Positions 1,329-18,457 of a DNA stretch of 64,000 nucleotides are shown piece by piece. The position numbers and the translations under genes are program-made. Source of the DNA: Mycolicibacterium fluoranthenivorans (lineage in GTDB: Bacteria > Actinomycetota > Actinomycetes > Mycobacteriales > Mycobacteriaceae). Under the pieces are notes generated by a model. The model was not told where the DNA came from. It searched no databases and saw only the letters and a list, made by a program, of their open reading frames with translations. The stretch is from contig NZ_JAANOW010000001.1 of NCBI RefSeq assembly GCF_011758805.1, positions 2,542,001 through 2,606,000 of the forward strand, in the 5' to 3' direction. Positions within the stretch are counted from its first letter, which is position 1. Each line of letters begins with the position of its first letter.

Positions 1329-1350
1329 ACATACCGTCCGAAACGTTTCT
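1329..1350. promoter_or_regulatory. degenerate copy of the 22-bp inverted repeat, upstream of the TetR gene
   Basis: ACATAC, 10 bases, then GTTTCT, which matches the GTATGT right arm at 4 of 6 positions. The geometry equals the better sites at 2102, 3048, 12670 and 18435. It ends 33 bases before the TetR start, where autoregulation would be expected. On its own it would not be convincing. Confidence 0.4.
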
Positions 1351-1383
1351 TTCAACGGATCATGCGTCGATGCCGGTTAGCAT

Positions 1384-2034
1384 GTGTTGGTGAGTGCACC
1401 TGTCGATGGGCCGAACAGGCGGCGTACGCAGGCCGAGCGCAGCGCGGCGATGCGCACGCGACTGCTGGACGCGACGGTGGAGTGCCTGGTCACGTACGGA
1501 TACGCCGGCACCACTACGCAGCGTGTCGCGGAGGTCGCCGGGGTTACCCGTGGGGCCCAGGTTCATCACTTCCGGTCCAAGGAGGACCTCGTGGTGGCTG
1601 CTATCGAGCATCTTGCGGAACAGCGCGTGCAGGCGGCGGTGCGTGAATTCGGTCGGGTGTCGGAGGCGCCGGATGCTGCGTCGTTGGTTCTTGACTATCT
1701 CTGGGAGTCGCATCAAGGTCCGGTATTCGTTGCCACCCTGGAACTTTGGGTTGCATCACGTACCGATGCGGTGCTCGCGGCGCAGATCGAGCGAGTTGAG
1801 CCCATCGTTACCGGCGCGCTGATTGGCGCATTGGCTCAGATGGTCCCGGATCAAGCGGCTCAGAAAAATCTCCGCGATCTGGCGTTCACCGCGATGGACG
1901 CATTGCGAGGGATCCTGCTGTCCAGCTTTGCCGACCGTGATCCCGAGCGGGCGCGTAAGCGATGGGACCGGGTATGCGGACAGCTGCGCGATCTACTCGC
2001 TGATTCTCTGAGCCCGGAGCTGCGCTCCTCGTAG
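1384..2034 (+). CDS. TetR/AcrR family transcriptional regulator
   Basis: 216 residues with a GTG start; GTG at 1390 is an alternative. Residues of about 20-75 form the TetR helix-turn-helix: helix 1 in TRLLDATVECLVTYGYAG, recognition helix region TTTQRVAEVAGVTRGAQ, and the usual HFRSKEDL ending. The C-terminal ligand domain is unremarkable and its ligand cannot be read from sequence. It is the only one-component regulator in the ltp1 block and lies next to copies of the ACATRC-N10-GTATGT repeat. I infer it represses itself and the thiolase operon, with an acyl-CoA or related pathway intermediate as inducer. Confidence 0.9.
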   Translation: MLVSAPVDGPNRRRTQAERSAAMRTRLLDATVECLVTYGYAGTTTQRVAEVAGVTRGAQVHHFRSKEDLVVAAIEHLAEQRVQAAVREFGRVSEAPDAASLVLDYLWESHQGPVFVATLELWVASRTDAVLAAQIERVEPIVTGALIGALAQMVPDQAAQKNLRDLAFTAMDALRGILLSSFADRDPERARKRWDRVCGQLRDLLADSLSPELRSS

Positions 2035-2101
2035 GACTTTGTCAGGTGGGGAAGCGATGTGGCGGGGCTGACCCAATCCTGCCCAGTCATTTGCGATATA
2101 T

Positions 2102-2123
2102 ACATACCGCGATGACTGTATGT
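2102..2123. promoter_or_regulatory. 22-bp inverted repeat (candidate TetR operator)
   Basis: ACATAC, a 10-base spacer, then GTATGT: perfect 6-bp arms. It lies about 65 bases after the TetR gene and just before the PE-PPE remnant, so it may once have controlled that gene. The spacing is identical to that of the site at 3048-3069. Confidence 0.6.
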
Positions 2124-2799
2124 CACTGTCTCAGCTGGACTCCGGTTTCCGAGTCCGCCACCGCCACAAGACATCTCGCTAGTCACGATCGGGGACCCCA
2201 CAAACATCGACGGTGGCCTCCGGGCGAGACCTCCTCATCTCCACATACCGATCTTGGATGCGACCATTCCGAAGCCTCCCGTCGAAACGCCGTACAACAC
2301 GGTCGAGATCGTCCATGAGTACGACGGCTATGCGGATTTCCCCGATAGACCGCTCAATCTGCTGGCCGACTTGAACGCTCTTGCCGGCGTCGTACATGAG
2401 CACCCCAACAAGCGCGGCGTCGATCTTTCAGATCCGAGCAACGTCGTAACGACAAGTACGAACTCATTGGGCGGCACCACTACTCACGTGTTGGTAACCA
2501 ACCGACGAGCTTCCGCTTACGCGACCGCGAGGTCTGTCGGCGTACCGGACAAGATAGTGAACCGGATGGACAGACCGCTGCGACGGATCATCAACACCGG
2601 CTACAGCGGCGAACGACCTGGGGCGGCTGAACCGCAGTCGGAATTCGAGGGTTCCGGTACGGATCGCACTGCCCGGGCTAGCAACCGAGCGGCTGGGCGC
2701 GTCCTACGTGGGATGAGCCATCGAGCTCTGAAAACGGCACACTCCGATGCCCCGAAAGGCACAAAGGCGCGGGCCGCTGGTGGGGGATTGTCTGAATAA
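2116..2799 (+). pseudogene. PE-PPE domain (alpha/beta hydrolase-like) protein remnant
   Basis: The open frame from 2116 reads IGDPTNIDGGL, then VEIVHEYDGYADFPDRPLN, DLSDPSN, and GVPDKIVNRMDRPLRRIINTGY. These are hallmarks of the C-terminal half of mycobacterial PE-PPE-domain proteins, which are exported serine hydrolases and esterases. The N-terminal part with the nucleophile and signal peptide is missing, and an in-frame TGA at 2113 closes the frame with no start codon and ribosome site ahead of the homology. A methionine at 2254 could start a 181-residue product, but that would begin mid-domain. I infer a decayed 3' fragment whose residual reading frame is still well preserved, implying recent loss. 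Confidence 0.75.
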
Positions 2800-3046
2800 C
2801 GGTGGACCTGACTTGGTCTGACACGCCGGGCGCGAATCTGGCGGGAAGGACTGATGATGTCCGACGCGCTCGAAATCGTGGCGATGGACCCGGGTCCTAG
2901 GCAGGTGCCACCACCGACCCGAATCAATCCGCGGCTTTGGACGGAGGCGATCTGGTGGCGTAGTCGACCGCACAGTAGGCCCTTCCGGGGACTTCGCACA
3001 CCTGATTCACACGGCACCACGGAACAGACCTGGCCACTTCTTGTAA
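2800..3046. other. non-coding stretch before the ltp1 operon
   Basis: No convincing gene on either strand. Short open frames here lack a start with ribosome site and show no family motifs. The stretch is presumably the promoter region of the thiolase operon together with the 3' flank of the PE-PPE remnant. Confidence 0.5.
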
Positions 3047-3070
3047 AACATACCAACAGGATGGTATGTT
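3047..3070. promoter_or_regulatory. 24-bp perfect inverted repeat, operator of the ltp1 operon
   Basis: AACATACCA, six bases (ACAGGA), then TGGTATGTT: nine-base arms without mismatch. It ends 27 bases before the ltp1 start and therefore probably overlaps the promoter. Length and symmetry fit a TetR-type operator. It is the best copy of the repeat found at four other places in this block. Confidence 0.75.
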
Positions 3071-3097
3071 AAATCCATCCCACGGAAAGAGAGGGCC

Positions 3098-4288
3098 ATG
3101 CCCAGGAAGACATACGTCATCGGCGTCGGTATGACGAAGTTCGAGAAGCCCGGAGCGATCGAGGGGTGGGACTACCCCGATATGGCTCGCGAATCGGGGA
3201 CGAAAGCGCTGGCCGACGCCGGCATCGACTATCGAGACGTCCAGGAGGCCTACGTCGGCTACGTGTATGGCGAGTCGACCTCGGGCCAGCGGGCTGTCTA
3301 CGAACTCGGCATGACCGGCATCCCGGTCGTCAATGTCAACAACAACTGCTCGACCGGATCCACCGCGCTGTACCTCGCTGCGCGGGCGGTCCGTAGCGGA
3401 CTCGCCGAATGTACGCTCGCACTGGGGTTCGAGAAGATGCAACCAGGGTCGCTCGGTTCCACTTACGACGACCGCGAGCAGCCGATGGCCAAACACTTCC
3501 TGGCATTGGCCGAGATCTCAGAGGTGCTGTTCCCGCCTGCGGCGTGGATGTTCGGGGCGGCCGGCCGAGAGCATATGCGGCAATACGGTTCTACTTCTGA
3601 GCATTTCGCGAAGATTGGGTACAAGAACCATAAGCACTCGGTCAACAACCCATTTGCCCAGTTTCAGGACGAGTACAGTCTCGATGACATCCTCGGCGCG
3701 CGGATGATCTACGACCCCCTTACCAAACTGCAGTGCTCACCGACCTCGGACGGTTCGGGCGCCGCCATCCTCGCCAGCGAGGACTTCGTCGACAAGCACG
3801 GGTTGGCCGAGAAGGCGGTGGAGATCGTCGGCCAGGCGATGACCACCGATTTTGCGAACAGTTTCGACGGCAGCTGCAAAGCGCTCATCGGGTACCACAT
3901 GAATGTCGCTGCGGCGCAGTGCGTCTACCAGCAGTCCGGTCTGGGGCCCGAAGACTTCCAGGTCATCGAGCTACACGACTGCTTCTCTGCCAACGAACTG
4001 CTGCTCTATGAGGCATTGGGCCTGTGCGAGGAAGGCGAAGCGGCCAAGCTGATCGACAACAACGACACCACTTACGGTGGGCGATGGGTCGTCAACCCGT
4101 CGGGTGGGCTGATCTCCAAGGGGCACCCGCTAGGAGCCACCGGGTTGGCCCAATGCGCCGAACTCACCTGGCAGCTGCGTGGTATCGCCGATAAACGGCA
4201 GGTGGACAACGTAACCGCAGCTCTGCAACACAACATCGGCCTCGGTGGCGCCGCCGTCGTCACCGCCTATCAGCGCGCCGAGCGCTGA
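3098..4288 (+). CDS. ltp1: lipid-transfer protein / SCP-X-type thiolase Ltp1
   Basis: 396 residues, ATG start behind an AGAGAGGG site. Thiolase-fold protein that cleaves or condenses acyl-CoA thioesters. The nucleophile is Cys84 in NNNCSTGS. The other catalytic segments are [10 protein letters not shown] and the GHPLGATG loop near the C-terminus. There is no SCP-2 domain, so it is the thiolase-only type related to the carbon-carbon cleaving Ltp and FadA enzymes of sterol side-chain degradation. M. tuberculosis has ltp1 at the same locus between truB and sirR, which supports the symbol. It is the first gene of the operon. The natural substrate is not known from sequence. Confidence 0.85.
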
Positions 4289-4311
4289 CCGAACACAAGA
4301 GGAGAACACCA

Positions 4312-4752
4312 ATGGGACATATCGAGGCAACCCGCGAGCTGGCCGCCGGCCCCGACGAACTGTGGGCGACGGTATCGAACCCCAACACCTGGGGTGACTG
4401 GTTCACCGTGCACGACAAGTGGCTGGAGGAACCGCCCGCAACGCTCACTCCCGGGACGAAACTCACCGCCAAGATCGTCATGCTGGGTATGGCGAACAAG
4501 ATCGAATGGAATATCGAATCCGTCGACGCTCCCCACAGCCTCGTGCTGGGTGGCACGGGAATGGCCGGTGTCAAAGCTCGATTTGTCTTTGACATCCAAC
4601 CGATCGCCGGCGGGTCCCGGTTCACCGTCAGCGGCGACTTCGAAGGAGCTCTCGTCAAGGGCGCCCTCGCGAAGGCCGTCGAGAAGGACGGCGTAAAGCA
4701 GCTCGACAAGAGCCTCGATGCGCTCGACGCACGAGCCGCGGCGTCCGCATGA
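4312..4752 (+). CDS. SRPBCC (START/polyketide cyclase-like) family protein
   Basis: 146 residues, ATG behind AAGAGGAGAA. The whole length is a helix-grip SRPBCC fold, a hydrophobic-cavity domain that binds or carries lipids and aromatic ligands. Typical segments are the N-terminal ATRELAAGPDELWATVSNP strand-helix and DWFTVHDKW. It lies 23 bases after ltp1 and overlaps the next gene by ATGA, so it is part of the operon. A clear paralogue lies at 21226-21837, sharing the patterns WG-WFxVHDxW and PPAT-x(3)-GTxLxAK. I infer a ligand-holding or chaperone role for the pathway's substrate; no catalytic residues are evident. Confidence 0.85.
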   Translation: MGHIEATRELAAGPDELWATVSNPNTWGDWFTVHDKWLEEPPATLTPGTKLTAKIVMLGMANKIEWNIESVDAPHSLVLGGTGMAGVKARFVFDIQPIAGGSRFTVSGDFEGALVKGALAKAVEKDGVKQLDKSLDALDARAAASA

Positions 4753-5639
4753 CGTCGACGAAAAGCGCTGCGGACACCGACGAACTCGTCTTCGATGACA
4801 GCGGCCTGAACACCTGGACCGATGAAGAGCGATTCGATGTGACCCGAGATCGGCTTGCCGAGTACGCGGCGGCCACCAACGATCCGATCCCGGCGCATCG
4901 CTCGGGCGAGGTCGCGCCTCCGGTGTTCGCCATCGTCCCGGTATTCGAGGCACTATTGGTTCCTGCCGTCGATGTGCTGCCTGTCGAACTCATCCCGCGA
5001 GTGGTGCACGGGGAGCAGGACTTTCACTTCCATCGTCCGATCAGGCCGGGGGACAAGCTCGTATCGCGCGGCAAGATGATCGGCTACGAAGGACTGGAAA
5101 ACGGCACCCGTGCGGCGATCTATCTCGAATGCCGCACGGAAGACGGCGAACTGGTCAATGAACAGTATGTCACCACGTTCGTCCGGGGATTCGATGCTGG
5201 TAAGGCGGTGGGGGAGCTCAGCCCCACCCACCGCTTCGACGAGGCGCTGCGTGCTAGGGCTCCTGTCGCCACCGTGGTTCAGCATATCGATGATGATCAG
5301 ACGTTCCGGTACAGTCCAGCGGCCGGCGATCCGATGCCGATCCACCTGGACGAGGAGGTGGCTCGCGATGCCGGACTGCCCGGCATCATCGCCCACGGTC
5401 TGTGCACCATGGCGTTCACCTCGTGGGCGGTGCTGACCGAGCTGGCGGGTTCGGACGTGCACCGGCTCAAGCGGTTCGCGGTGCGCTTTTCGAAGATGGT
5501 GTTGCCCGGCGACGATCTGCAGACGCGTATCTGGCAGAGCACCAGCGCAGCCGGAGTCACCACTTACGCATTCGAAACCGCACGTGGAGCTGATCTGGTC
5601 ATCACCGACGGGTTGGCCGAAATTGCCGAGGAGGCATAA
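4749..5639 (+). CDS. MaoC-family double-hotdog enoyl-CoA hydratase
   Basis: 296 residues, start overlapping the previous stop. Two hotdog domains: an N-terminal MaoC_dehydrat_N-like half (residues of about 20-150, RPGDKLVSRGKM) and a C-terminal MaoC half. The hydratase 2 signature is in the second half: YSPAAGDPMPIHLDEEVARDAG followed by IIAHG, with the catalytic Asp in GD and His in PIH. It would add water to a 2-enoyl-CoA giving the (3R)-hydroxyacyl-CoA. That product suits the MFE-like dehydrogenase encoded next, so hydratase and dehydrogenase form consecutive steps. Confidence 0.88.
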   Translation: MTSTKSAADTDELVFDDSGLNTWTDEERFDVTRDRLAEYAAATNDPIPAHRSGEVAPPVFAIVPVFEALLVPAVDVLPVELIPRVVHGEQDFHFHRPIRPGDKLVSRGKMIGYEGLENGTRAAIYLECRTEDGELVNEQYVTTFVRGFDAGKAVGELSPTHRFDEALRARAPVATVVQHIDDDQTFRYSPAAGDPMPIHLDEEVARDAGLPGIIAHGLCTMAFTSWAVLTELAGSDVHRLKRFAVRFSKMVLPGDDLQTRIWQSTSAAGVTTYAFETARGADLVITDGLAEIAEEA

Positions 5640-5642
5640 CAT

Positions 5643-6512
5643 ATGGGAGCACTGGACGGGCGCGTTGCCGTCATCACCGGCGCAGGTCGGGGGATCGGGC
5701 GCGAGCATGCACTGCTGTTCGCCGCAGAGGGAGCCAGCGTCGTGGTGAACGATCTGGGCGGCACCAACTCCGGGGACGGCACCGACGCTGGCCCGGCGCA
5801 CGAAGTCGTCGCCGAGATCCGGGCGGCCGGAGGCGCCGCCGTTGCCCATACCGAGAACATAGCTACCTGGGACGGCGCCCAGTCGCTGGTGCAGCAGGCA
5901 GTCGACGAGTTCGGGCGGCTCGATGTGGTGGTGAACAATGCCGGCATCCTGCGGGACGCGTTCATCCCCACGATGGCTGAATCCGATTGGGACGCCGTGA
6001 TCGCGGTACATCTCAAGGGTCACTTCTCGGTGCTGCGCCACGCTGCGGCGTACTGGAAGGCGCAGTCCAAGGCGGGTGATCAGCCCAACGCGGCGGTGAT
6101 CAATACCGCATCGGGATCGGGTACCACGATTCCCAATGCCGGGCAGGCCAACTACGGGGCCGCCAAGGCCGCCATCGCGGCGCTGACCTTGGTCGGGGCC
6201 GATGAGTTGGAACGCTACGGTGTGCGTGTCAATGCCATCGCCCCGATCGCGCGGACCCGGCTCACCCTGGCGACTCCAGGAATGGGTGCGTTGATGGCAG
6301 AGCCGGACGACGGCGAGGTCGACCTGTTCAGCCCTGCCAACATTTCACCACTGGTGGCCTATCTTGCGACTGAGAAGTGCCCGGTGACGGGTCAGGTGTA
6401 CGCCGTTCAAGGCGGTGCGATCTCGCAACTGCGAGGTTGGCACGATACTGAGACCATCGAGACCGACGGGCTGTGGCGCATCGATGATATCGCTGGGCGG
6501 CTGCCGTCATGA
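5643..6512 (+). CDS. SDR-family (3R)-hydroxyacyl-CoA dehydrogenase-like oxidoreductase
   Basis: 289 residues, ATG three bases after the MaoC stop. Classical short-chain dehydrogenase: nucleotide loop GAGRGIGRE near residue 12, NNAG motif, catalytic Ser in the NTASGSG segment and YGAAK as the Tyr-x3-Lys pair. The stretch VVVNDLGGTNSGDG after the first Rossmann strands is typical of the dehydrogenase unit of peroxisomal-type multifunctional enzyme 2. This fits oxidation of a (3R)-hydroxyacyl-CoA produced by the adjacent MaoC protein. It overlaps the acyl-CoA dehydrogenase gene by four bases. Confidence 0.88.
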   Translation: MGALDGRVAVITGAGRGIGREHALLFAAEGASVVVNDLGGTNSGDGTDAGPAHEVVAEIRAAGGAAVAHTENIATWDGAQSLVQQAVDEFGRLDVVVNNAGILRDAFIPTMAESDWDAVIAVHLKGHFSVLRHAAAYWKAQSKAGDQPNAAVINTASGSGTTIPNAGQANYGAAKAAIAALTLVGADELERYGVRVNAIAPIARTRLTLATPGMGALMAEPDDGEVDLFSPANISPLVAYLATEKCPVTGQVYAVQGGAISQLRGWHDTETIETDGLWRIDDIAGRLPS

Positions 6513-7783
6513 TCGAATGGTCCGATACCGATGTGATCATGCGGGATACCGTCCGCGAGTTCATCGACAAGGAGATCAGACCGCACCTGGATGTCCTGGA
6601 GCGTGGAGAGATGTCTCCGTATCCGTTGGCTCGCAAGCTGTTCAGCGAATTCGGTCTTGACGCCATGGCCGCCGAAGCAGTCAAGACGATGCTGGACAAG
6701 CAACGGGCCAAAGAGACGGCCGTCGCTGCCGGCGCAACCGCCACGGACAAGGTCTCCCACGAGGGAGGTGGTCTCGGCGATATCGGTGCGCAGGCGTCGA
6801 TGGCCGCGGTGATGGTCTCCGAACTCGCCGGCGTGAGCATCGGCCTGCTCAGCACCATCGGTGTCAGTCTGGGACTGGGCGCGGCAACCATCATGAGTCG
6901 CGGCACGCTGGCACAGAAGGAGCGCTGGCTGCCCGAACTGATGACCTTGGACAAGATCGCGGCGTGGGCGATCACCGAGCCGGATGCCGGCTCGGATGCC
7001 TTCGGCGGTATGAAGACCACCGTCAAGCGCTCCGGTGATGGTGACGGGGCCTATATCCTCAACGGACAGAAGACGTTCATCACCAACGGCCCGGAGGCCG
7101 GCATTCTGATCGTCTACGCCAAGCTCGACGATGGCAGCGGTATCGATCGACGGGACCGCCCGGTGCTGACGTTCGTGCTCGACGCGGGGATGCCCGGACT
7201 GACTCAGGGCAAAGCGTTCAAGAAGATGGGCATGATGTCCTCGCCGACCGGTGAGCTCTTCTTCGACAACGTCCGGCTCACCCCGGACCGGTTGCTCGGA
7301 GAAACGGAGTCCCACACCGGCGGCGACGGACGCGACAGCGCTCGAGCCAGTTTCGCAGCCGAACGGGTAGGGGTCGCGCTGATGTCGCTCGGCATCATCA
7401 ACGAGTGCCACCGGCTGTGCCTGGACTACGCAAAAACCCGCACGCTGTGGGGTAAGCAGATCTCGACCTTCCAGCTGATCCAGCTCAAGCTGGCCAAGAT
7501 GGAGATTGCCCGGATCAACGTGCAGAACATGGTGTTCCAGACTTTGGAGCGCCTGAAACATGGCTCACTACCCAGCCTTTCAGAGGCGTCAGCGATCAAG
7601 CTGTACTCCTCGGAGGCGGCCACCGAGGTGGCGATGGAGGCCGTGCAGCTATTCGGCGGTAACGGCTACATGGCCGAGTACCGGGTGGAACAACTCGCCC
7701 GTGACGCCAAGTCGCTGATGATCTACGCGGGCAGCAACGAGGTACAGGTCACCCACATTGCCAAGGGCCTGCTCGCCGGATGA
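6509..7783 (+). CDS. fadE21: acyl-CoA dehydrogenase (FadE21-like)
   Basis: 424 residues. FAD enzyme for alpha,beta-dehydrogenation of acyl-CoA: WAITEPDAGSDA and GQKTFITNG in the middle domain and GGNGYMAEYRVEQLARDAK near the end. The usual C-terminal Tyr-Glu-Gly base is Tyr-Ala-Gly here. A Glu is present in AAERVGVALMSLG (residue 285), the base position of isovaleryl- and long-chain enzymes, so the enzyme is probably active. Residues of about 55-95 form a longer insertion, polar and Ala/Gly rich. M. tuberculosis has fadE21 beside ltp1 here, hence the symbol, with moderate certainty. The start overlaps the SDR stop. Confidence 0.82.
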   Translation: MIEWSDTDVIMRDTVREFIDKEIRPHLDVLERGEMSPYPLARKLFSEFGLDAMAAEAVKTMLDKQRAKETAVAAGATATDKVSHEGGGLGDIGAQASMAAVMVSELAGVSIGLLSTIGVSLGLGAATIMSRGTLAQKERWLPELMTLDKIAAWAITEPDAGSDAFGGMKTTVKRSGDGDGAYILNGQKTFITNGPEAGILIVYAKLDDGSGIDRRDRPVLTFVLDAGMPGLTQGKAFKKMGMMSSPTGELFFDNVRLTPDRLLGETESHTGGDGRDSARASFAAERVGVALMSLGIINECHRLCLDYAKTRTLWGKQISTFQLIQLKLAKMEIARINVQNMVFQTLERLKHGSLPSLSEASAIKLYSSEAATEVAMEAVQLFGGNGYMAEYRVEQLARDAKSLMIYAGSNEVQVTHIAKGLLAG

Positions 7784-8613
7784 TCGCCGAATCTCGGGCC
7801 ACCTACAACGGTGTGGGCACCCGGGTGCTATCGGTGTCCGGGTGCGGAACCCCGGTGATCCTGCTGCACGGTTACGCCGACAGCGCGGACACCTGGCGGG
7901 CCGTGCTCGCCCGGCTAGCGGCAGCCGGGCGACGGGCGCTGGCCGTCGACCTGCCCGGCTTCGGCCGGGCAGGTCGACGCCGGTCGGGTCCGATGCTCCC
8001 ACAGTTCGACTCCTTCGCCGACGCCCTGCTCGACGATACGGGACCCGCAGTCCTGGTGGGGAATTCACTGGGCGCGGCTACGGCGGTGCGCGCCGCCGAT
8101 CGCCGTCCGGACGTTGTGCGGGCACTGGTGGCTTTGGATGATCCGATCAACGCCAGGCACTGGTTGGCCCGCGCCGCGCGCTACCGTGAGGTTCCGACCG
8201 GGTTTTGGCGCACTGCAGCTCGGCTACCCATACCCGCGGTCACGTTACGTTGGGCAACCGAGCGGGGCGTGCGTCGGGTGCTCTACGGTCCGGGCGCGCC
8301 CGCGGACCCCGATGTGCTCGCCCGGTGGAACCGGACGGTGGCCAGTCAGGCCGCGGTCGCTAACCTCGGCCGATACGCCCTTCAGTACGCACGTGAGACC
8401 GCGGCCGGTCACTGTGGCGTCCGCGTCAGCTGCCCGACGGTCGTGGTGCACGGAGCCAGAGACAGAATCATCCCAGTCGACGCGAGCCGCGTTCTACATC
8501 AACAGATTCCGGGGAGCGAACTGGTGGTCCTTCCGGGATCGGGACACTGCCCGCAACTCGACGATCCAGATGCCGTCGCGCGACTGATCGTCGCGCTGAA
8601 AGGTGATACATGA
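7780..8613 (+). CDS. alpha/beta hydrolase
   Basis: 277 residues, ATGA overlap with the dehydrogenase gene. Oxyanion segment LLHGYADSADTW, nucleophile elbow VGNSLGAA (Ser96), acid in HGARDRIIPVDAS and catalytic His in GSGHCPQLDDPDA. All parts of the Ser-Asp-His triad are therefore visible. The family covers esterases, ring-opening C-C hydrolases and lactonases. Given its place between acyl-CoA dehydrogenase and acyl-CoA ligase genes it may open a lactone or ester before CoA activation, but that is inference. No signal peptide is seen, so it is cytosolic. Confidence 0.85.
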   Translation: MIAESRATYNGVGTRVLSVSGCGTPVILLHGYADSADTWRAVLARLAAAGRRALAVDLPGFGRAGRRRSGPMLPQFDSFADALLDDTGPAVLVGNSLGAATAVRAADRRPDVVRALVALDDPINARHWLARAARYREVPTGFWRTAARLPIPAVTLRWATERGVRRVLYGPGAPADPDVLARWNRTVASQAAVANLGRYALQYARETAAGHCGVRVSCPTVVVHGARDRIIPVDASRVLHQQIPGSELVVLPGSGHCPQLDDPDAVARLIVALKGDT

Positions 8614-10196: not shown

Positions 10197-10243
10197 ACGG
10201 GGAAGGTGCGCCGATTCGAATTCGCTATCAGAGGGGATGTTCA

Positions 10244-11110
10244 ATGATGCGTCGCTATCACAATATTCACCGGATCGTTGCGGTGACCGGTGGTGCCCGT
10301 GGTATAGGTCGCGCCACCGCCAAGGCATTCGCGGGAGCAGGAGCTCGAGTCGCCATCGGTGACATCGATGGCGATCTGGCAGCCCATGTCGCGCACGAGA
10401 TATCCAGGGCGACCGGCGGACAGGTGTGCGGATTACCCCTAGACGTCACTGATCGATCTGCCTTCACGGATTTTCTGGACGCGGCCGAGTCTCGATTGGG
10501 CCCGCTCGACACGCTGGTCAACAATGCCGGCATCATGCCCACCGGGTTGTTCTCCGACGAGGACGACACGATGACCGACCTCATGGTGTCCATCAACCTC
10601 GCAGGTGTGCTGAACGGGTCCAAACTGGCAGTGCGGAGGTTCTCCGGACGCACCGGCCGCATCGTCAACATCGCCTCGCTGGCGGGCATCAGCGCGCACC
10701 GCGGTGTAGCCACGTACTGCGGCACCAAACATGCAGTGGTCGGGTTCTCGGATTCGCTTCGCCTCGAACTGCGCGATAGCGGAATCGGTGTGACGCTGGT
10801 CCTTCCGGGGTTGGTGCGAACAGATCTGTCGGCAGGGAGCGGAACACCGCTGTGGGTCCGACCGGTCAGCGAAGTGGATCCCGAGGATGTGGCTTCGGCT
10901 GTCGTCGACGCAGTTGTGCGTGGTCGTGACAAGGTCGTGGTGCCGCGATCGCTCGGTGTCCTGCTCGGAGCCGTGCAACTGCTGCCGACGCGTGTGCGCA
11001 GCAGATTGGAACGGTTGGCGCATCTCGACGCCGCCTTCACCGCCACGGATTCGGATGCCCGGGCGCGCTACCACGGGCGGATTCTGGAGACCAGACGTGA
11101 CAATGTTTGA
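10244..11110 (+). CDS. SDR-family oxidoreductase
   Basis: 288 residues from the ATG at 10244, which has AGAGGGG seven bases ahead. A GTG at 10193 overlapping the ligase stop would add 17 residues and cannot be excluded. Short-chain dehydrogenase with GGARGIGRAT, NNAG, IASLAGISAHRG and YCGTK as the Tyr-x3-Lys pair. The C-terminal 60 residues are longer than in minimal SDRs and carry a LPTRVRSRLERLAHLD stretch seen in FAR- and hydroxysteroid-type SDRs. With the aldehyde dehydrogenase gene that follows it could oxidise an alcohol to an aldehyde and then an acid for activation by the ligase. Confidence 0.85.
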   Translation: MMRRYHNIHRIVAVTGGARGIGRATAKAFAGAGARVAIGDIDGDLAAHVAHEISRATGGQVCGLPLDVTDRSAFTDFLDAAESRLGPLDTLVNNAGIMPTGLFSDEDDTMTDLMVSINLAGVLNGSKLAVRRFSGRTGRIVNIASLAGISAHRGVATYCGTKHAVVGFSDSLRLELRDSGIGVTLVLPGLVRTDLSAGSGTPLWVRPVSEVDPEDVASAVVDAVVRGRDKVVVPRSLGVLLGAVQLLPTRVRSRLERLAHLDAAFTATDSDARARYHGRILETRRDNV

Positions 11111-12602
11111 CGTCACGGCGCCGGCAACGGGTCAGATCGTGGGGCGGGTGGCCGATATGACCGGCGACGACGTGGTCGCGGCGGTCGACAATCTGCATGC
11201 TTCGCAAGGTGATTGGGCAGATATGGCCGTCACGCAACGTGTTCGGTGGCTTCATCGATATCGAGACTGGCTATTGGATCATGAGGACGCGCTCGCAAAG
11301 TTGCTGCAGGATGAGACTGGGAAGCCCTGGGCAGAAGCGAATCTGGAGATTCCCTATATTGTCGAAGCAATCAACTACTACGGGCGGCTGGCGCCTGGCC
11401 AGCTACGGTCGAAGGCCGTCAGAAGACACGGCCCTCTGGCGCTGGGCAAGAGCCAGATGCTGCGCTGGCACCCGTATCCGGTGGTCGGCATCATCACCCC
11501 GTGGAACTTCCCGCTCGGTTTGTCGCTGCTGGACGCGGTTCCGGCATTGGTCGCCGGCGCCGCCGTGGCGATCAAGCCGTCGGAATACACCCCGTTGACG
11601 GTTTGTGCTGCAGTGCGCGGATGGGCGGCAATCGGTGCACCGCCGGTGCTTTCGGTATGTACTGGCGGTGCGGTGGCTGGTGGTGCTCTTGTCGACAGCG
11701 TGGACTATATCCAGTTCACCGGCTCGTCCGCCACCGGCCGCGTTGTCGCGCACCGGGCTGCGGAACGGCTCATTCCCTGCGGGCTGGAACTTGGCGGCAA
11801 GGACGCGCTGATCGTCCGGGCTGATGCCAATCTCGACCGTGCCGCCAACGCGGCGGTCTGGGGCGCGGTGGCCAATGCAGGACAGATGTGTACCTCCATC
11901 GAACGCGTCTACGTCCACGCCGATATCCATGACAGATTCGTTTCCCTGGTCGCCGCCAAGGTCGGTGAGCTACGAGTCGGCTGCGACGATCGTAGATACC
12001 GATTCGATGTCGGGCCCCTGACCACCGCGGCGCAGTGGGGGGTGGTCAGTGCACATGTGGACGACGCCCTTCGCAAGGGCGCCAGGGTGGCTGGCGCCGG
12101 CCGGGTGCCGTCGTGTCCGAGTTCGTCCAACCTGTATCCACCGATCGTGCTGGTCGATGTCGACCATTCGATGAGCTGTATGCGGGACGAGACGTTCGGT
12201 CCGATCCTGCCGGTGATGCGATTCACCACCGATGACGAAGCGATTGCCTTGGTCAACAACTCTCGGTACGGACTGTCCGCCACGATATTCGCCGAGGATG
12301 TCGAGCTTGCGCACCGGATGGCGCATCGGCTCGATGTGGGTGCCGTCAACATCAACGACGTTTTCGCGAATCTGTTCACCCTGGCGCTCCCGCAAGGGGG
12401 CCGCGGTGAATCGGGTGTCGGTACCCGGAACGGTAGCGGTGCCGTCTATAAGTACTGCCGGCCACAAGCGGTGGTGACCGCACGGTTCCGGCCGCGCCGC
12501 GAACCGACCTGGTATCCGTATGCGCCGCTGCGTGGGGCGTTCGTGCATCGGGTATCGCGCATCCTTGGTGCGCGCGATGTCATCCGACAGTTTTGCCGGT
12601 GA
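11103..12602 (+). CDS. NAD(P)-dependent aldehyde dehydrogenase
   Basis: 499 residues from ATG 11103; GTG at 11097 is two codons upstream. Full-length ALDH: NAD-binding region with ITPWNFPLG and AIKPSEYTP, catalytic Glu in ELGGKDALIV, catalytic Cys in GQMCTSIERV, and GRGESGVG near the C-terminal bridging part. It turns an aldehyde into a carboxylate, or possibly a CoA-linked acid. It is the last gene of the nine-gene operon and overlaps the SDR gene. A start inside the SDR gene at 10887 is open but unsupported. Confidence 0.88.
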   Translation: MFDVTAPATGQIVGRVADMTGDDVVAAVDNLHASQGDWADMAVTQRVRWLHRYRDWLLDHEDALAKLLQDETGKPWAEANLEIPYIVEAINYYGRLAPGQLRSKAVRRHGPLALGKSQMLRWHPYPVVGIITPWNFPLGLSLLDAVPALVAGAAVAIKPSEYTPLTVCAAVRGWAAIGAPPVLSVCTGGAVAGGALVDSVDYIQFTGSSATGRVVAHRAAERLIPCGLELGGKDALIVRADANLDRAANAAVWGAVANAGQMCTSIERVYVHADIHDRFVSLVAAKVGELRVGCDDRRYRFDVGPLTTAAQWGVVSAHVDDALRKGARVAGAGRVPSCPSSSNLYPPIVLVDVDHSMSCMRDETFGPILPVMRFTTDDEAIALVNNSRYGLSATIFAEDVELAHRMAHRLDVGAVNINDVFANLFTLALPQGGRGESGVGTRNGSGAVYKYCRPQAVVTARFRPRREPTWYPYAPLRGAFVHRVSRILGARDVIRQFCR

Positions 12603-12668: not shown

Positions 12669-12692
12669 AACATGCGTTCCCCTTAGTATGTT
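12669..12692. promoter_or_regulatory. 22-bp inverted repeat upstream of the response regulator
   Basis: AACATGC, ten bases, then GTATGTT. One mismatch in seven-base arms (the G in the left arm), with the same 22-bp core geometry as the ltp1 operator. It ends 28 bases before the response-regulator start, in the 118-base gap after the aldehyde dehydrogenase gene. This links the two-component system to the same regulator. Confidence 0.65.
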
Positions 12693-12720
12693 TGTGACGG
12701 CGGGATGACGGGAGTCGGCG

Positions 12721-13434
12721 GTGTACAGTGACCTGCGGCAACCGGCACATCCACCCGCAACGGTGTTGGTGGTCGACGACGATCAGGGCATCTGTGACCT
12801 GCTGGAATCGGTGCTGGACCTTGCCGGATACTCGGTGCTGCGGGCCAACGACGGACTGAAGGCCGTCACCGTGTTGTCCACCCATGAGGTTGACCTGGCG
12901 TTAGTCGATATCGGCTTGCCGGACGTCGATGGCATCACTCTGATTCCGCGTATCCACCAGCGGAGCCCGACGACAGCGATCATTCTGCTCACCGCCCGAA
13001 ATGACATCGAGTCCAAGGTGGGTGCTCTTCGCGGCGGGGCTGACGACTATGTCACCAAACCGTTTCATCCGACTGAGGTCGTTGCCCGTATCGAGGCTGT
13101 GCTGCGCCGGTCCCATGACGGAGACGGAGAACGGTTGTCCTACGGTGACCTGACGGTTGATCTGCAGCGCCTGATCGTCGAACGTGCGGGACATCCGGTG
13201 GCATTGACGCCGACGGAGCTGAGACTGCTGGTCTACCTTCTGCGCAACGCCGAGCGTGTCGTGTCGCGCAGTCAGATCCTCGATCAGGTGTGGCAATACA
13301 GCTTTCAGGGCGAAGGTGTCGTGGTCGAGAAGGTGGTGTCGAACCTACGCAAGAAGGTCGATGCCAACGGGGAGCCGCTGATTCAGACCGTGCGTGGATT
13401 CGGATATACCTTGCGCCGGAGCGCCGGTTCGTGA
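12721..13434 (+). CDS. OmpR-family two-component response regulator
   Basis: 237 residues, GTG start. The N-terminal receiver domain has acidic residues in VVDDDQG, phospho-acceptor Asp63 in ALVDIGLPDVDG, a Thr/Ser switch in LLTARND and Lys113 in VTKPF. The C-terminal 100 residues are a winged helix (LTPTELRLLVYLLRNAERVVSRSQILDQVW) ending in VRGFGYTLR. Phosphorylation by the kinase encoded next would switch its DNA binding. The kinase gene overlaps by GTGA. Target genes are not shown by the sequence; the exported-protein genes immediately downstream are natural candidates. Confidence 0.92.
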   Translation: MYSDLRQPAHPPATVLVVDDDQGICDLLESVLDLAGYSVLRANDGLKAVTVLSTHEVDLALVDIGLPDVDGITLIPRIHQRSPTTAIILLTARNDIESKVGALRGGADDYVTKPFHPTEVVARIEAVLRRSHDGDGERLSYGDLTVDLQRLIVERAGHPVALTPTELRLLVYLLRNAERVVSRSQILDQVWQYSFQGEGVVVEKVVSNLRKKVDANGEPLIQTVRGFGYTLRRSAGS

Positions 13435-14906
13435 GAGTTGGTCCGTTTCGCAGACGGGTGCCGCGGGGCTTGCCGTCCATGGTGGCAACTGTGCGAAGCC
13501 GGACCGTGGCGATCCTGTGCATTGCTGTACTGCTGATCTCGGCGACGGCAGTGCTCGGACTGGCCTCGCTGCTCGACCTTTACACCCGTAGGCAGGTCGA
13601 TCTGGCGGCGGGCGTCCTTGCGTTTGTCGGTTCGGGCCGGCAGCAGTCGCAGATCATCGATCCCGACCAGTTCGCCGCGCGAATGCCCTCGACGGCAACG
13701 ATTGTATTTGCCGACGGTGGTGGTACTCGGGTGGTGTGGTCGACCGCGCCGGGTGATCCCGCGGCAGGCGAACTCGAGCGGCTGCTTCAGTCCGTCGCAT
13801 CCGGTGGCGTCGTCGATGTGCCGTTTGTGCAGCACATGGTCAAGGCGCAGCTGCTGCGGTTCGGTACTCCGGTGTTGTTGCAAGACAAGGTGACCGGCGA
13901 GCTGAGAGCGGCGGACTCAGCTGTCGTGGCGCTGGGAACCCGTTCATCGGTGAAGCTGCTTCGCGTGATGATCGGGGTATCGGCGGCGATCACGGTCGTC
14001 ACGATGGTAGGGGCTGCGCTTGCCGTGACGATCATGGTGCGGGCCACGATGCGTCCGCTCAGCCGGCTGGCGGACCTGGTCGGTGCGCTCGGTGATCGTC
14101 CGCCCGTCGGGTCCCTGCGACGTGGCCGCGTGAGCATGAGTCGGTACCAGGAGTCCTCGACGCTCGCGAATGCCATTGCAGGTTTGGTCGACCGTCGCGC
14201 CCGGATCGAAGCCGAACTGCGCGAGTTCGTCGCGAACGCATCACATGAATTGCGGACGCCGCTCACCAAGATCCAGGGTTGGTCCGAACTCCACTTCCAA
14301 ACGCCGCCGCAGGCGGAGCGCACCGAGCGCGCCATGCGCAGCATCGTGGAGGAATGCGACCGGATGCGTGGTCTGCTCGACCAGCTGACGCTGCTGGCCC
14401 GCGCCGAGGCGCCCCAGCAGCTACCCACCGAACATGTCGACGTGTGCGCGCTGTGCGCCGTGGTGGCCGAGGATGTCGCGGTCGTTGCTCCGGACCGACG
14501 CGTGACAACGCGGCTCCCGAGTGATCCGGTGTTCGTGGTTGCACACGAAGACCGGCTCGCTCAGGTCCTACGCAATGTGGTCGGCAACAGCCTTGCCCAT
14601 GCCGGCGACGACGCCGTGGTCGATATTGCCGTCGAGACGGATGACCTTTCGGTCCGAATAGTGCTGTCCGACAACGGAGTGGGAATTCCTGCGGTGTACA
14701 GGGCGCGGGTGTTCGACCGCTTCTTCACCAGGACCCGGGGGACCGGGTCCGGCAGTGGTCTCGGGCTGTCGATCGTGCAGGCGATTGTCAGCGGCTACGG
14801 GGGATCCGTGCAACTGTGGTCGGAACCAGGCAGGGGAACAAAGGTGACGATCGCACTTCCTCGTGTTCGTCGCACATCCGGCGGGGGGCTGAGGATCGAC
14901 AGGTAA
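13431..14906 (+). CDS. membrane sensor histidine kinase (HAMP type)
   Basis: 491 residues from the GTG at 13431 overlapping the regulator stop. A first membrane helix lies at about residues 22-45 (TVAILCIAVLLISATAVLG), then a 130-residue external sensing region and a second helix at about 180-205. HAMP linker, H-box NASHELRTPLTK (His272), N-box NVVGNSLAHA, and G-boxes DNGVGIP and GSGSGLGLSIV follow. This is a TcrY/TrcS-like layout. The external domain shows no motif I recognise, so the stimulus is unknown; a cell-envelope signal is plausible because three exported proteins follow. Confidence 0.92.
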   Translation: MRVGPFRRRVPRGLPSMVATVRSRTVAILCIAVLLISATAVLGLASLLDLYTRRQVDLAAGVLAFVGSGRQQSQIIDPDQFAARMPSTATIVFADGGGTRVVWSTAPGDPAAGELERLLQSVASGGVVDVPFVQHMVKAQLLRFGTPVLLQDKVTGELRAADSAVVALGTRSSVKLLRVMIGVSAAITVVTMVGAALAVTIMVRATMRPLSRLADLVGALGDRPPVGSLRRGRVSMSRYQESSTLANAIAGLVDRRARIEAELREFVANASHELRTPLTKIQGWSELHFQTPPQAERTERAMRSIVEECDRMRGLLDQLTLLARAEAPQQLPTEHVDVCALCAVVAEDVAVVAPDRRVTTRLPSDPVFVVAHEDRLAQVLRNVVGNSLAHAGDDAVVDIAVETDDLSVRIVLSDNGVGIPAVYRARVFDRFFTRTRGTGSGSGLGLSIVQAIVSGYGGSVQLWSEPGRGTKVTIALPRVRRTSGGGLRIDR

Positions 14907-15019
14907 TCGTCAGGAAACCATCCAGGGTCGGTAAAGCGGAAGCGGTCGACTTATGGACGACCGGGCCAGTTCACCTCAGTGTCCCGGATCGCACGTTCCC
15001 GACGACTGAAGGAAGTTCC

Positions 15020-16933
15020 ATGGTTGCGCATTCACCGCACAGGGTTGTCATCGGCGCAATGGCCGCCTGGTCGATCCTCGCGCTAGGATCCGTGATTTCG
15101 GCGCCGCAGGCGCTACCGGCACCTGCCGGTGCTCCACCGCCGGCCTCGCCGGCGCTGGAGCCCTTCAGTGTCGAGAAAGTCATCCAATTCCAGTTGCCTT
15201 CGGGGGTGACGGCCAACACCGCCGACTTGAGTCCCGACGCACAGCACCTGCTTGTCGAGGTTGTGGTCGACGGAAAAACACAGGTGGCATCGACAAACCT
15301 GGACGGCGCCGACTATCAATGCATCTCGTGCGGAACAGCGACGAATGCCACCAAAGTCCTTGCACTGGAAGATAGTAAGCGAATCTGGTACGCGGACACT
15401 TCCGGGCAGCAGTCGACGGATGACCCTGGCAGCGGGGGCACAGGCAGTATCAATTACTCCCTTCTTGAGTGCTCGCCGTCGATCTACGACTGCCGGCAGA
15501 AGAGCAACACGAAGGTGAAGTTCCCTTCCGACAAGCGGAACCTGCCTGCGCAGAATCGCGAGGCCAAGCCGGATCCGTTCGGGGAGTACGTCACGTGGAA
15601 CGAGGTGTCAGCCATCGAAGGCACCCGGATGAGTATCGCCAAGTTGGCGAAGACCGATAAAGGATACGAGCTGACCGATCAGCGGGTCTTCAGCCCTCCG
15701 TGGGTCAAGAAGTCCGACTTCGCCGCCGATCGAGAGAATGCCATGCGGTTCTACGAGGGTGCCAGTTGGCATGAGGGCGGTCGGATCCTGAAGTACCAGG
15801 AGACTTCGACCGGTCTCAACTACGACATCTACCTGCTGGATACGGCCACTGGGGAACGGAGACAGCTGACCACCGATCTGGACTACAACGAGGCTGCAGA
15901 TATCGCCCCGGATGGTAGGACCGTGTATTTCACCTCGGCCCGCGGTCTCGACCGAATGGATGTCTTCACGGCATTGCAGAGGCCGTCTCTGATCGACAGC
16001 GGGGCATTCGGCCAGATTGCCAGGGTGAGCCTGTGGAACAACCGCCGCTGCATGAACGAGCCGTGGATGATGCAGATGGATCCGGGGCAACAACTCGGCG
16101 GATACTCCGGGCAACCCATCATCATCGACCCGGCCTGGACGGTGCGGGGGTGGAGTTGGTTTCCCGATTCCACGCGTGCAGTCATCAACGAACAGGAACG
16201 GCCCGCAGATAGTCAAGGTCCGGGTGCGCCCGACACACCTTGGCGGACAAGCATCGTCCGGTTCTCGACCCGCAATGCAACCGCACCGATGTCACCGGTG
16301 CACCAGAACCCGGCGGCGATAGCAAAATGGTCCGTGCCGATCAAAGACTTCAACCCCATGATGGGCAGGCAAGCTCCGCTCAAGGTGCTCAAGGGCAAGA
16401 AGTCCGGAACCGCAACGATTCAGTACCTGGGTGCCTACGCCATCGGATCGTATGCCGTTGCCTACAAGAACTACTCGGATGACGGCAAGACGTTCATCGA
16501 TGGAACAGAGCGGATTGTGGTCCCGTACGCCGCGGCAAGCGCCGAATGGTCGGCGGACCTCACGAGTAAAGGTGAACGCTCTGGTTATCTGAAGGGCAAC
16601 ATCACTATCGGCGCGCAGAACAAGTACTCCGGTGAGGTGACTTCCGAGATCAACGGCAAGAGGTACTCCGGCATCCCGACGCAGGGGGATTGTCCTTCTC
16701 CCGGAATGCCCGCGCTGGCGGTATCAGCATCGGATGGCGGCGTGCAGGTCACCGCAACCGTGTCCGAGGACGCGAATCCACGGCCCGTCCGGGGTGCCAA
16801 GGTCACTGCAGGCTCGGCCAGTGCGACGACCGATGACCGCGGATTCGCACGTATCGCGGTACCCGCCGGAACCACCGTGAACGCCCAAGCCGACGGCTTC
16901 AAGGCGACGTCCACCGAGGTTGCCGGCTCCTGA
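15020..16933 (+). CDS. secreted WD40/TolB-like beta-propeller protein with C-terminal Ig-like domain
   Basis: 637 residues, ATG behind GAAGGAAG. Signal peptide: basic HSPHR, a hydrophobic stretch, then small residues before a Pro/Ala-rich linker. The body has repeated blade motifs such as TADLSPDAQHLLVE, DYNEAADIAPDGRTVYFTS and GWSWFPDSTRAVIN, typical of PD40 propellers. Paired Cys occur in CISCGT and LECSPSIYDC, fitting an extracytoplasmic location. The last 75 residues (VRGAKVTAGSASATTDDRGFARIAV) resemble a carboxypeptidase-regulatory-like fold. The protein shares blade patterns with the one encoded at 18490. Function unknown; no enzyme residues are apparent. Confidence 0.8.
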   Translation: MVAHSPHRVVIGAMAAWSILALGSVISAPQALPAPAGAPPPASPALEPFSVEKVIQFQLPSGVTANTADLSPDAQHLLVEVVVDGKTQVASTNLDGADYQCISCGTATNATKVLALEDSKRIWYADTSGQQSTDDPGSGGTGSINYSLLECSPSIYDCRQKSNTKVKFPSDKRNLPAQNREAKPDPFGEYVTWNEVSAIEGTRMSIAKLAKTDKGYELTDQRVFSPPWVKKSDFAADRENAMRFYEGASWHEGGRILKYQETSTGLNYDIYLLDTATGERRQLTTDLDYNEAADIAPDGRTVYFTSARGLDRMDVFTALQRPSLIDSGAFGQIARVSLWNNRRCMNEPWMMQMDPGQQLGGYSGQPIIIDPAWTVRGWSWFPDSTRAVINEQERPADSQGPGAPDTPWRTSIVRFSTRNATAPMSPVHQNPAAIAKWSVPIKDFNPMMGRQAPLKVLKGKKSGTATIQYLGAYAIGSYAVAYKNYSDDGKTFIDGTERIVVPYAAASAEWSADLTSKGERSGYLKGNITIGAQNKYSGEVTSEINGKRYSGIPTQGDCPSPGMPALAVSASDGGVQVTATVSEDANPRPVRGAKVTAGSASATTDDRGFARIAVPAGTTVNAQADGFKATSTEVAGS

Positions 16934-16941
16934 TACGGGCT

Positions 16942-16981
16942 CGGCCCGGCCGTGCAGCGCACCGAACGCACGGCCGGGTCG
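16942..16981. terminator. strong hairpin after the first propeller gene
   Basis: CCCGGCCGTGC, 12-base loop, GCACGGCCGGG: eleven perfect pairs, extendable by C-G, G-C and a G-T pair at the base. It starts nine bases after the stop codon. No T-run follows, which is common for mycobacterial terminators. The next gene begins 40 bases later, so some read-through is possible. Confidence 0.65.
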
Positions 16982-17020
16982 GTTCCGCCTGCAATCGTTG
17001 CCCGTCGGAAGGTCGATGAA

Positions 17021-18307
17021 ATGAAATCAGCAATCTCCCTGGGGCTGGTAGTGCTGGTACTTCTCCTGTCCGGCAGGGCACATGCGGCTCCCACAACCAT
17101 CGACGTCGATGCGCTGACCACACTGGTGAGTGCGGTCGCCGAGGCCGAACAGAACGTGCACCGTGTGCAGGCACTGGCCGCCCAGGATCGGGAAAGGGTC
17201 AATGCCTTCATTGCCGACGCGGCGCAGGCGCGAGTTGCGGCGGACGAGGCGCACCGAAACGAACTGCGGGCGAGCGGAGCGCTCGGTGACGCGGAGGGAC
17301 GACTGGACTTGTTGCAGAAGGGATTCGACCGCTTTGCGGCTGCGAGCTATGTGTACGGCCCCATCGCCTCTGCTGAAACGATCGCTGACCCGGCTGAGCT
17401 GATGGCAACCGCTGCGCTGACGGAATCGATAGTCCTCAGTAGGAAGAATGCCGCCGACGATCTGTCGGAGGCGCGAACTCGGCGGGTGGACGACCTGCAA
17501 CGCGCTCGGGCGGCGGCGGAAGAATCTGAGCGCGCGTTGGTCGAGACAGAAGAGCGCCGCGCTGATGCCGTCAGGGCGCTAGCGAATTCGCAGCATGCGG
17601 CTGCCGACTGGCAGCGCACGTTGAATGAGCTGGTGGCGCAGCGTAATCAGCTGCAGGAGAGGCTCGATGCGGTCACCGGTAGCCATGAGAACATGCCACA
17701 AGACCCGAGTCCGGTCCCTGTGCCGCAGTCGTCCTCCGACCCGACGGAAGCGGTCGACCGGTTGCTCGCGCTCGCGGAGACATCGTCTCATGCCACCGCC
17801 GCCATGGGCCGTACCTTCTTGGCGCGATTGAGTACATCGGCACAGGATATTCCGGCACTGCCGGCTCGACCGACCTCATCGGGCCCTATACCCGTGAGTG
17901 CGGGAAGGCGGGCAAGCGAATACGTCATCGCGCGAGCCCTGACGCAGCGGGGCGTGGATTATTCCTGGGGCGGCGGCACTGCGACGGGGCCCAGCCGCGG
18001 TATCGGCGGGGGCGCCGACACGGTGGGCTTCGATTGCTCAGGGTTGATTCTGTACGCGTTCGCGGGGGTAGGGATCGAACTTCCGCACTTCTCCGGCCGG
18101 CAGTACGAGTTGGGCAGAAAGATCCCGGTGGCCCAGATGCGCCGAGGCGATGTCGTCTTCTACGGCGAGGGCGGCGGACAGCACGTGGCGCTCTATCTCG
18201 GCGACAACGTGATGGTGGAGGCGCCGACTCCGGGCGGTGTCGTCACTGTGTCGCCACTGCGTACCAGCGATATGGCCCCGTACGCGGTGAGGTACATCGA
18301 GTCCTGA
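17021..18307 (+). CDS. NlpC/P60 peptidoglycan endopeptidase, RipA-like
   Basis: 428 residues, ATG behind GGAAGG. Signal peptide with cleavage likely after AHA (residue 22). A long helical coiled-coil (about 30-230, Ala/Glu/Arg rich) matches the autoinhibitory N-domain of RipA; a Pro-rich linker follows and then the C-terminal NlpC/P60 domain. Catalytic residues are Cys339 in FDCSGL, His388 in QHVALY and Glu400. The 49- and 12-residue spacings equal those of the Cys-His-Glu triad of M. tuberculosis RipA. It should cut peptide cross-bridges of peptidoglycan in the periplasm. Its place between two secreted propeller genes and after a sensor kinase suggests a regulated wall-remodelling unit. Confidence 0.9.
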   Translation: MKSAISLGLVVLVLLLSGRAHAAPTTIDVDALTTLVSAVAEAEQNVHRVQALAAQDRERVNAFIADAAQARVAADEAHRNELRASGALGDAEGRLDLLQKGFDRFAAASYVYGPIASAETIADPAELMATAALTESIVLSRKNAADDLSEARTRRVDDLQRARAAAEESERALVETEERRADAVRALANSQHAAADWQRTLNELVAQRNQLQERLDAVTGSHENMPQDPSPVPVPQSSSDPTEAVDRLLALAETSSHATAAMGRTFLARLSTSAQDIPALPARPTSSGPIPVSAGRRASEYVIARALTQRGVDYSWGGGTATGPSRGIGGGADTVGFDCSGLILYAFAGVGIELPHFSGRQYELGRKIPVAQMRRGDVVFYGEGGGQHVALYLGDNVMVEAPTPGGVVTVSPLRTSDMAPYAVRYIES

Positions 18308-18433
18308 GCACCCAGGGAAGGGGGCACCGCCGGGGGACGATTTCGGCCGGCAAGGTGATGAGGTGCGACAGGAATCATCGGAACCGACAATTTCTTGCCA
18401 TGGTCGGATCGGTCGCCTACAGTTCGCAGCATA

Positions 18434-18457
18434 TACATGCAGTCGAGTATGTATGTA
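18434..18457. promoter_or_regulatory. 22-bp inverted repeat upstream of the second propeller gene
   Basis: TACATGC, ten bases, GTATGTA. The core ACATGC-N10-GTATGT has the same spacing as the ltp1 operator, with one arm mismatch and an extra outer T-A pair. It ends 33 bases before the GTG start at 18490. Confidence 0.65.

Follow-up and report, generated by a model that had tools for sequence, protein, structure and literature searches.

In a 64,000-nucleotide stretch of the Mycolicibacterium fluoranthenivorans genome (contig NZ_JAANOW010000001.1, positions 2,542,001 to 2,606,000; hereafter the window, with coordinates counted from its first letter), five copies of an inverted repeat were found around a block of lipid-catabolism genes headed by ltp1. 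We consider it very probable (roughly 0.87) that these repeats are the operators of the TetR-family regulator encoded at 1384-2034, which would repress genes for lipid catabolism and the cell envelope until an inducer releases it. The sites, their clustering, their conservation, their co-occurrence with the TetR gene and their overlap with promoter-like hexamers were computed, and from these we infer binding by TetR, repression, and an acyl-CoA as the inducer. No description of the regulon or of its operator was found in the open-licence literature, judged by title and start of abstract among the papers listed.

All four exact copies of ACATRC-N10-GTATGT, with a gap of 10 bases between the arms, that had been reported in a first-pass annotation of this DNA were found. 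The copy at 3048-3069 lies 28 bases 5' of ltp1 and received the highest score in the window, 38.9, with a matrix built from other species (described below). It also has the nine-base perfect arms that had been claimed for the best copy, set around a 6-base centre (3047-3070). The other exact copies were located at 18435-18456, 33 bases 5' of the gene for a predicted propeller protein (propeller 2, GTG start at 18490; score 28.9), at 12670-12691, 29 bases 5' of a response-regulator gene (score 21.6), and at 2102-2123, in front of a PE-PPE remnant (score 16.1). The fifth copy, at 1329-1350, is 33 bases 5' of the TetR start and could serve in autoregulation. It had been described as decayed and does carry two mismatches to the motif, but its matrix score of 19.0, the fourth highest in the window, exceeds that of the exact copy at 2102. 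Three copies had been counted within 35 bases of a start codon; these three are so placed, but the number is four, since the TetR gene (GTG at 1384) also has a site at 33 bases. With up to two mismatches allowed, there were 15 strand matches in the window, compared to a mean of 3.44 and a maximum of 9 in 100 dinucleotide shuffles.

The whole genome (6,408,998 bases in 6 contigs) contains the exact motif four times, always inside 16.4 kb of the window, and no exact copy was found outside the window. The reversed control of the motif gave 0 matches genome-wide. The clustering of the exact motif in the window is real and sharp. Allowing one mismatch gave 21 places in the genome versus 23 for the reversed control, which is background, and a looser pattern gave 72 versus 75. 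Since the one-mismatch matches drown in background, the ACATRC pattern alone cannot reveal weaker copies. A 26-bp matrix was made from 35 distinct ltp1-upstream sites of other mycobacteria, with the genome of the window excluded. The five sites were the five top scores of this matrix in the 64 kb (38.9, 28.9, 21.6, 19.0 and 16.1), and the next unrelated place scored 1.5, once shifted registers of the five sites were set aside. In 15 random 64-kb sequences the matrix peaked at 8.6. When the window served as the model for six random sequences of 6.4 Mb, these contained 4, 1, 3, 2, 0 and 0 places scoring at least 14, with a top score of 20.1. Further sites in the same genome were sought among 26 places picked from the mismatch and looser-pattern matches listed. 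The best of these 26 was a palindrome, ACATAC-N6-GTATGT, at C3:630266 (L240 2763), with a matrix score of 20.9. It adjoins an ABC transporter gene and a saccharopine-dehydrogenase-like gene, without a clear target gene, and it is borderline because one of the six random genome-sized sequences reached 20.1.

Conservation was examined in 55 named mycobacterial loci, which were chosen by their TetR gene and extended at most ~10 kb on each side. Of these, 45 were used for the ltp1 count; in L059, L070, L071, L086, L092, L093 and L095-L098 no full-length match to ltp1 was usable. Within 400 bp upstream of the TetR-linked ltp1, 41 of the 45 loci have the motif with no more than one mismatch, and 44 have it when two are allowed. 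None of 40 ltp1 genes from genomes that lack a TetR match (taken in rank order among the matches listed, with G005, at a contig edge, left out) has it upstream. The same was true for all 15 other ltp1 copies from TetR genomes, which were 14 second copies and the single ltp1 of G028, chosen among the matches listed. A matrix score of at least 12 was reached in none of these control regions (40 + 15). The repeat is thus conserved upstream of orthologues of the window genes, above all at ltp1. The first-pass annotation had named two outcomes that would refute its reading, unrelated hits elsewhere in the genome and a lack of conservation at orthologues; for the exact motif, neither was obtained.

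Among 198 genomes of the genus, 62 have a relative of the TetR protein (E of 1e-20 or better), and in 38 of these 62 the identity is at least 60%. Searched genome-wide, a refined pattern of the site had a single place in each of 28 genomes out of the 198, and its reversed control had no match in any. The carriers were 24 of the 62 genomes with a TetR match (own genome included) versus 4 of the 136 without (Fisher p 1.5e-10), and in all 24 TetR-match carriers the site lay within ~60 bp upstream of ltp1. The informative part of this search is the near absence of the pattern from TetR-less genomes. The first-pass annotation had named the TetR gene at 1384 as the likely binder, and it does appear to be the best candidate, given its co-occurrence with the sites and the lack of the motif at the 40 TetR-less ltp1 genes.

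The regulator itself (1384-2034, plus strand) matched the TetR_N domain (PF00440, E 1.6e-13), and the structural matches of its AlphaFold2 model (pLDDT, a confidence score, of 84.7) in Foldseek were of the TetR fold. Co-occurrence of its orthologues with the sites marks it as the likely binder of all five. Its recognition region, VTRGAQ.HHF.SKE.L, is largely invariant among 29 aligned TetR sequences. Two further arrangements of the TetR gene were seen in other mycobacteria. In nine loci (L079, L081-L084, L088, L089, L091 and L099) a tandem TetR pair, a duplicated regulator, precedes ltp1, and the motif follows each copy. In loci where TetR stands between truB and sirR with no ltp1, an operator-like site was found just 3' of the TetR gene in five of eight (L070 10667, L071 2808, L092 10676, L093 1768 and L096 10647; scores 16.5-24.4).

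The copy at 2102 lies in front of what is left of a gene for a PE-PPE acyltransferase/esterase (2170-2799, plus strand; open reading frame 2254-2799). The remnant is truncated at its 5' end, has neither a signal peptide nor a GxSxG segment, and covers only positions 119-228 of 228 of PF08237 and 202-325 of 351 of NF041570 (62.9 bits, cut-off 580). In seven of eight distinct homologous genes with at least 50% identity, a site stands 535-558 bp ahead of the segment homologous to the window; the gene of G009 lacks one. An intact copy in L082 starts 24 bases 3' of its site and has a signal-peptide-like N-terminus, as well as a GxSxG segment ~20 residues before the portion that survives in the window. 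Therefore, the most plausible reading of the 2102 copy is the operator of a gene whose 5' part has been lost.

The site at 12670 precedes a row of four plus-strand genes. These encode an OmpR-type response regulator (12721-13434; PF00072, PF00486), a sensor histidine kinase whose start overlaps the response-regulator stop (13431-14906; PF00512, PF02518), a TolB-like, probably exported propeller (propeller 1, 15020-16933; TIGR02800 at 33.4 bits, cut-off 343), and a RipA-like NlpC/P60 peptidase (16952-18307; PF00877). The longest open reading frame of propeller 1 runs from 14816, and the start at 15020 was picked by eye for its signal-peptide-like N-terminus. The structure prediction for propeller 1 had a mean pLDDT of 58.4 and was not used. 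Propeller 2 (18490-21060, plus strand) is Big_9/TolB-like and probably exported (PF17963, E 3.1e-09; TIGR02800 at only 22.9 bits).

Homologues of propeller 1 were found in 8 of the 198 genomes, and all eight have a TetR match (hypergeometric p 7e-5, or 2e-4 without the own genome). When the contig-edge copies L077, L082 and L196 were left out, there were 14 distinct propeller-1 genes, two of them in a two-component operon. Eight of the other 12 have a site scoring at least 12 at or near the 5' end. One such site (14.3), in G004 (L204), lies just outside the propeller-1 open frame, ~620 kb from the TetR gene. Propeller 2 is preceded by a site in both G034 and G121. Three units are each headed by a site in G034 (L192), where TetR is followed first by a site (24.8) with aldehyde dehydrogenase (70%), the response regulator, the kinase, propeller 1 and NlpC, then by a site (26.7) with propeller 2, and last by a site (34.6) with ltp1. 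In G121 (L205), aldehyde dehydrogenase, propeller 2, ltp1 and PE-PPE parts occur with sites scoring from 24.8 to 35.4, and the two-component genes are absent from the stretch read. In G037 and L077, TetR and the response regulator point away from each other and a site (14.4 and 24.1) separates them. In these gene orders, the regulon retains its sites despite rearrangement of its genes. This comparative evidence supports the earlier proposal that lipid catabolism, a two-component system and an exported propeller belong to one circuit. Distal copies of propeller 1 were also seen a few kb from a second, siteless ltp1 copy in G043, G176 and G004 (L200, L201 and L204).

Several findings weigh against a regulon of this form. 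Most relatives have a weak autoregulatory site or none, and an upstream score of at least 12 was reached at 20 of 54 TetR genes. Of the 12 propeller-1 genes that are not part of the two-component operon, three have no site and one has a weak site (7.5), and 6 of 16 propeller-2 rows reach 12, duplicates and contig edges included. The refined site also occurs in four genomes that lack a TetR match, and its position at ltp1 is partly by construction because the pattern was learnt from TetR-linked loci. The perfect palindrome ACATAC-N10-GTATGT was found in 14 of the 198 genomes (reversed control, 1) and seven of these 14 have no TetR match; thus, the palindrome by itself does not identify the regulon. 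A loose genus-wide pattern matched 157 of the 198 genomes and was uninformative. The ltp1 genes of TetR-less genomes may form a separate paralogous lineage, and the comparison with these 40 genes ignores phylogeny. Finally, a paralogue 41% identical to the TetR protein is encoded in the same genome (C2:967795), and G092 (L207) has a TetR protein, 49% identical, that lies 1.6 kb from two motif copies (8568 and 8719; scores 19.2 and 21.3). From the G092 case, the specificity seems common to a wider TetR subfamily, and cross-talk would be possible.

The paralogue and the G092 case also speak for a different reading, in which a paralogous TetR protein, encoded at another place in the genome, would bind the repeats instead of the local one. 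We regard this as improbable, since both the co-occurrence of orthologue and motif and the adjacency of the gene favor the local TetR. The two motif copies of G092 precede an SRPBCC-fold gene and an acyl-CoA dehydrogenase gene (66%). TetR proteins of ~50% identity were seen near ACATAC-N10-GTATGT copies not only in G092 but also in G050, G088, G147, G169 and G190, and this group could perhaps represent a second regulon of the same specificity. As a separate observation, perfect palindromes with GC-rich centres occur in TetR-less genomes (G007 C50:18598, G108 C2:940278, G113 C86:54406 and G013 C24:53884). These are perhaps another conserved feature.

Another possible explanation is that the response regulator at 12721 binds the repeats, so that the two-component system governs the whole block, and a site does stand 29 bases 5' of its gene. 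OmpR-type regulators, however, usually bind direct repeats. Response-regulator orthologues (at least 55% identity), sought within the TetR-chosen loci only, were found in just 2 of the 55 (L072 and L077), yet 41 of the 45 ltp1 promoters there have the motif. This explanation is therefore very improbable, even more so than the paralogue.

An operator reading is also consistent with the arrangement of the ltp1 promoter. The aligned ltp1 sites (44 of the 45 used) have the consensus TTGYAA followed by AGATACAnnCnGGTnnGTATGTTT, and position counts over the same sites give TTGYAA, a 17-bp spacer and TATGTT. In the window, the conserved columns point to TTGTAA at 3041-3046 (plus strand) as the probable -35 hexamer, and to TATGTT at 3065-3070, inside the right arm of the operator copy, as the probable -10, with a spacer of 18 bp. 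This assignment is likely and follows from conservation; a scan of 1200-3200 for the sigma-70 consensus gave no match. The left arm is among the most conserved positions of the aligned sites, and the central C and G are conserved as well. Because the left arm sits in the spacer, which needs no particular sequence, the best reading of the palindrome is that of an operator overlying the promoter, and because of this overlap repression by occlusion is likely. The least probable alternative, that the repeats are just the conserved core promoter of one sigma-factor class, would account for the -10-like TATGTT in the right arm and the TTGYAA 17 bp 5' of it, but not for the highly conserved left arm and central C and G, nor for the absence of the motif from the promoter regions of the 40 TetR-less ltp1 genes and the 15 other copies.

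The ltp1 block consists of nine genes by Pfam and NCBIfam matches (3098-12602, all on the plus strand). The first encodes Ltp1, an SCP2-thiolase-type lipid-transfer protein (3098-4288; NF006102 at 695 bits, cut-off 436; SCP2-thiolase type-1 structures at E ~1e-166). Next is an SRPBCC-fold protein (4312-4752; PF10604), which passes the cut-off of NF047960 (155 bits, cut-off 100), a model named "Rv0910 family toxin"; by its gene context, a lipid-binding role is likelier than a toxin. It is followed by a MaoC-type double hot-dog hydratase (4749-5639; PF01575, PF13452; PF22622, MFE-2 hydratase-2, at 30.5 bits, cut-off 27), a dehydrogenase of the SDR family (5643-6512; PF00106; NF005861 at 439 bits, cut-off 373), an acyl-CoA dehydrogenase (6509-7783; PF00441, PF02770, PF02771), an alpha/beta hydrolase (7780-8613; PF12697), an acyl-CoA ligase (8610-10196; PF00501, PF13193) and a second SDR dehydrogenase (10193-11110; PF00106). 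The last gene encodes an aldehyde dehydrogenase (11103-12602), a 499-aa frame from 11103; the PF00171 match was obtained on a longer open reading frame, 10887-12602. By these matches, the block has the parts of a peroxisome-type beta-oxidation, namely an SCP2-type thiolase, a hydratase, an SDR dehydrogenase, and an acyl-CoA dehydrogenase and ligase. On the 5' side of the TetR gene is a gene at 61-1188 that we take to be truB. On the 3' side of propeller 2 are a further SRPBCC-fold gene and then, on the opposite strand, a SirR-like gene of the iron-dependent-repressor type.

Without inducer, a TetR dimer would occupy each repeat, possibly with two dimers per site. In the putative ltp1 promoter, the spacer from the -35 to the -10 hexamer is filled by the repeat, which also covers the -10, so that RNA polymerase would be excluded. 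The inducer would be a small molecule, most likely an acyl-CoA that the ltp1 block produces or consumes, and it would free TetR from the DNA. Release would allow joint expression of TetR, the beta-oxidation block, the two-component system with propeller 1 and the RipA-like peptidase, and propeller 2. In other genomes, the regulator would also control an exported PE-PPE acyltransferase/esterase, of which the window retains a remnant only.

We tentatively suggest, as a possible but rather doubtful extension, that these genes form a lipid-utilisation programme under one switch. The exported PE-PPE acyltransferase/esterase and the two exported propellers would capture a branched or bulky extracellular lipid or act on it, the two-component system and the RipA-like peptidase would adapt the envelope, and the peroxisome-type beta-oxidation block would degrade the lipid inside. 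An acyl-CoA-sensing TetR with an operator like that of the gamma-butyrolactone receptors would release the whole set. Through this regulon, a specific set of lipid-degradation genes would be tied, in many mycobacteria, to a two-component system, a PE-PPE acyltransferase/esterase and uncharacterised, probably exported propellers. The sharp consensus, AGATACAnnCnGGTnnGTATGTTT preceded by TTGYAA, could be used to find members in other genomes, and a TetR protein with mapped operator sites makes the substrate of the operon approachable through its inducers.

Several known systems can be compared to the window. KstR, the mycobacterial cholesterol-catabolism repressor, has an operator motif that differs from the one in the window. 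The TetR fold is common to both proteins, and KstR ranked fifth in Foldseek with 21% identity. Membership in the KstR family was rejected, as the window protein scored 30 bits against an NCBIfam cut-off of 280. According to the accessible part of its description, KstR is a TetR-family repressor with a regulon of lipid-degradation genes (PMC1995591). Rv0078 and EthR2, which we take to be one protein, are among the nearest solved near-full-length relatives, at a distant 26-30% identity in Foldseek. According to the accessible text, BkaR is a TetR protein of mycobacteria that represses a branched-chain keto-acid operon (PMC3920632); it controls nearby metabolic genes, as the window TetR is proposed to do, but the genes are different.

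The closest likeness at the DNA level was to the Streptomyces gamma-butyrolactone receptors CprB, ArpA and ScbR. In the accessible part of the report, CprB was crystallised on a 22-bp semi-palindrome that begins with ACATAC and is bound by one dimer on each of two opposite faces (PMC4150764). Compared by eye with this one printed operator, the window operator is alike in its 22-bp length and in its ACATAC outer half-site, and by analogy two TetR dimers may possibly bind each window site. The window protein was rejected as a member of the ScbR/CprB family itself, as it scored 47.6-47.8 bits with NF041196 and ranked 37th of 128 matches in its own genome, none of which reached the cut-off of 150. 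One of two printed protected sequences of another TetR protein, PccD, has ATGGTATGTTAA in common with the right arm of the site at ltp1, but not with the left arm (PMC11596240, in the part accessible). The kstR3 operon, as presented in the accessible part of PMC10398937, is a different operon from the window block.

The mtrA-mtrB-lpqB operon and RipA are a known set. The stretch at 12721-18307 is like this set in kind, with a response regulator, a kinase, a propeller and a RipA-like peptidase in a row, and the best NCBIfam matches of the response regulator and the peptidase are MtrA and RipA. Membership was rejected, as all scores were under the cut-offs (MtrA 187.8 of 300, MtrB 129.6 of 450, RipA 384.5 of 625); propeller 1 had no LpqB-specific Pfam match. 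As a whole, the system is a familiar kind of local TetR repressor regulon with an unusual membership, namely a two-component system, probably exported propellers and a PE-PPE protein.

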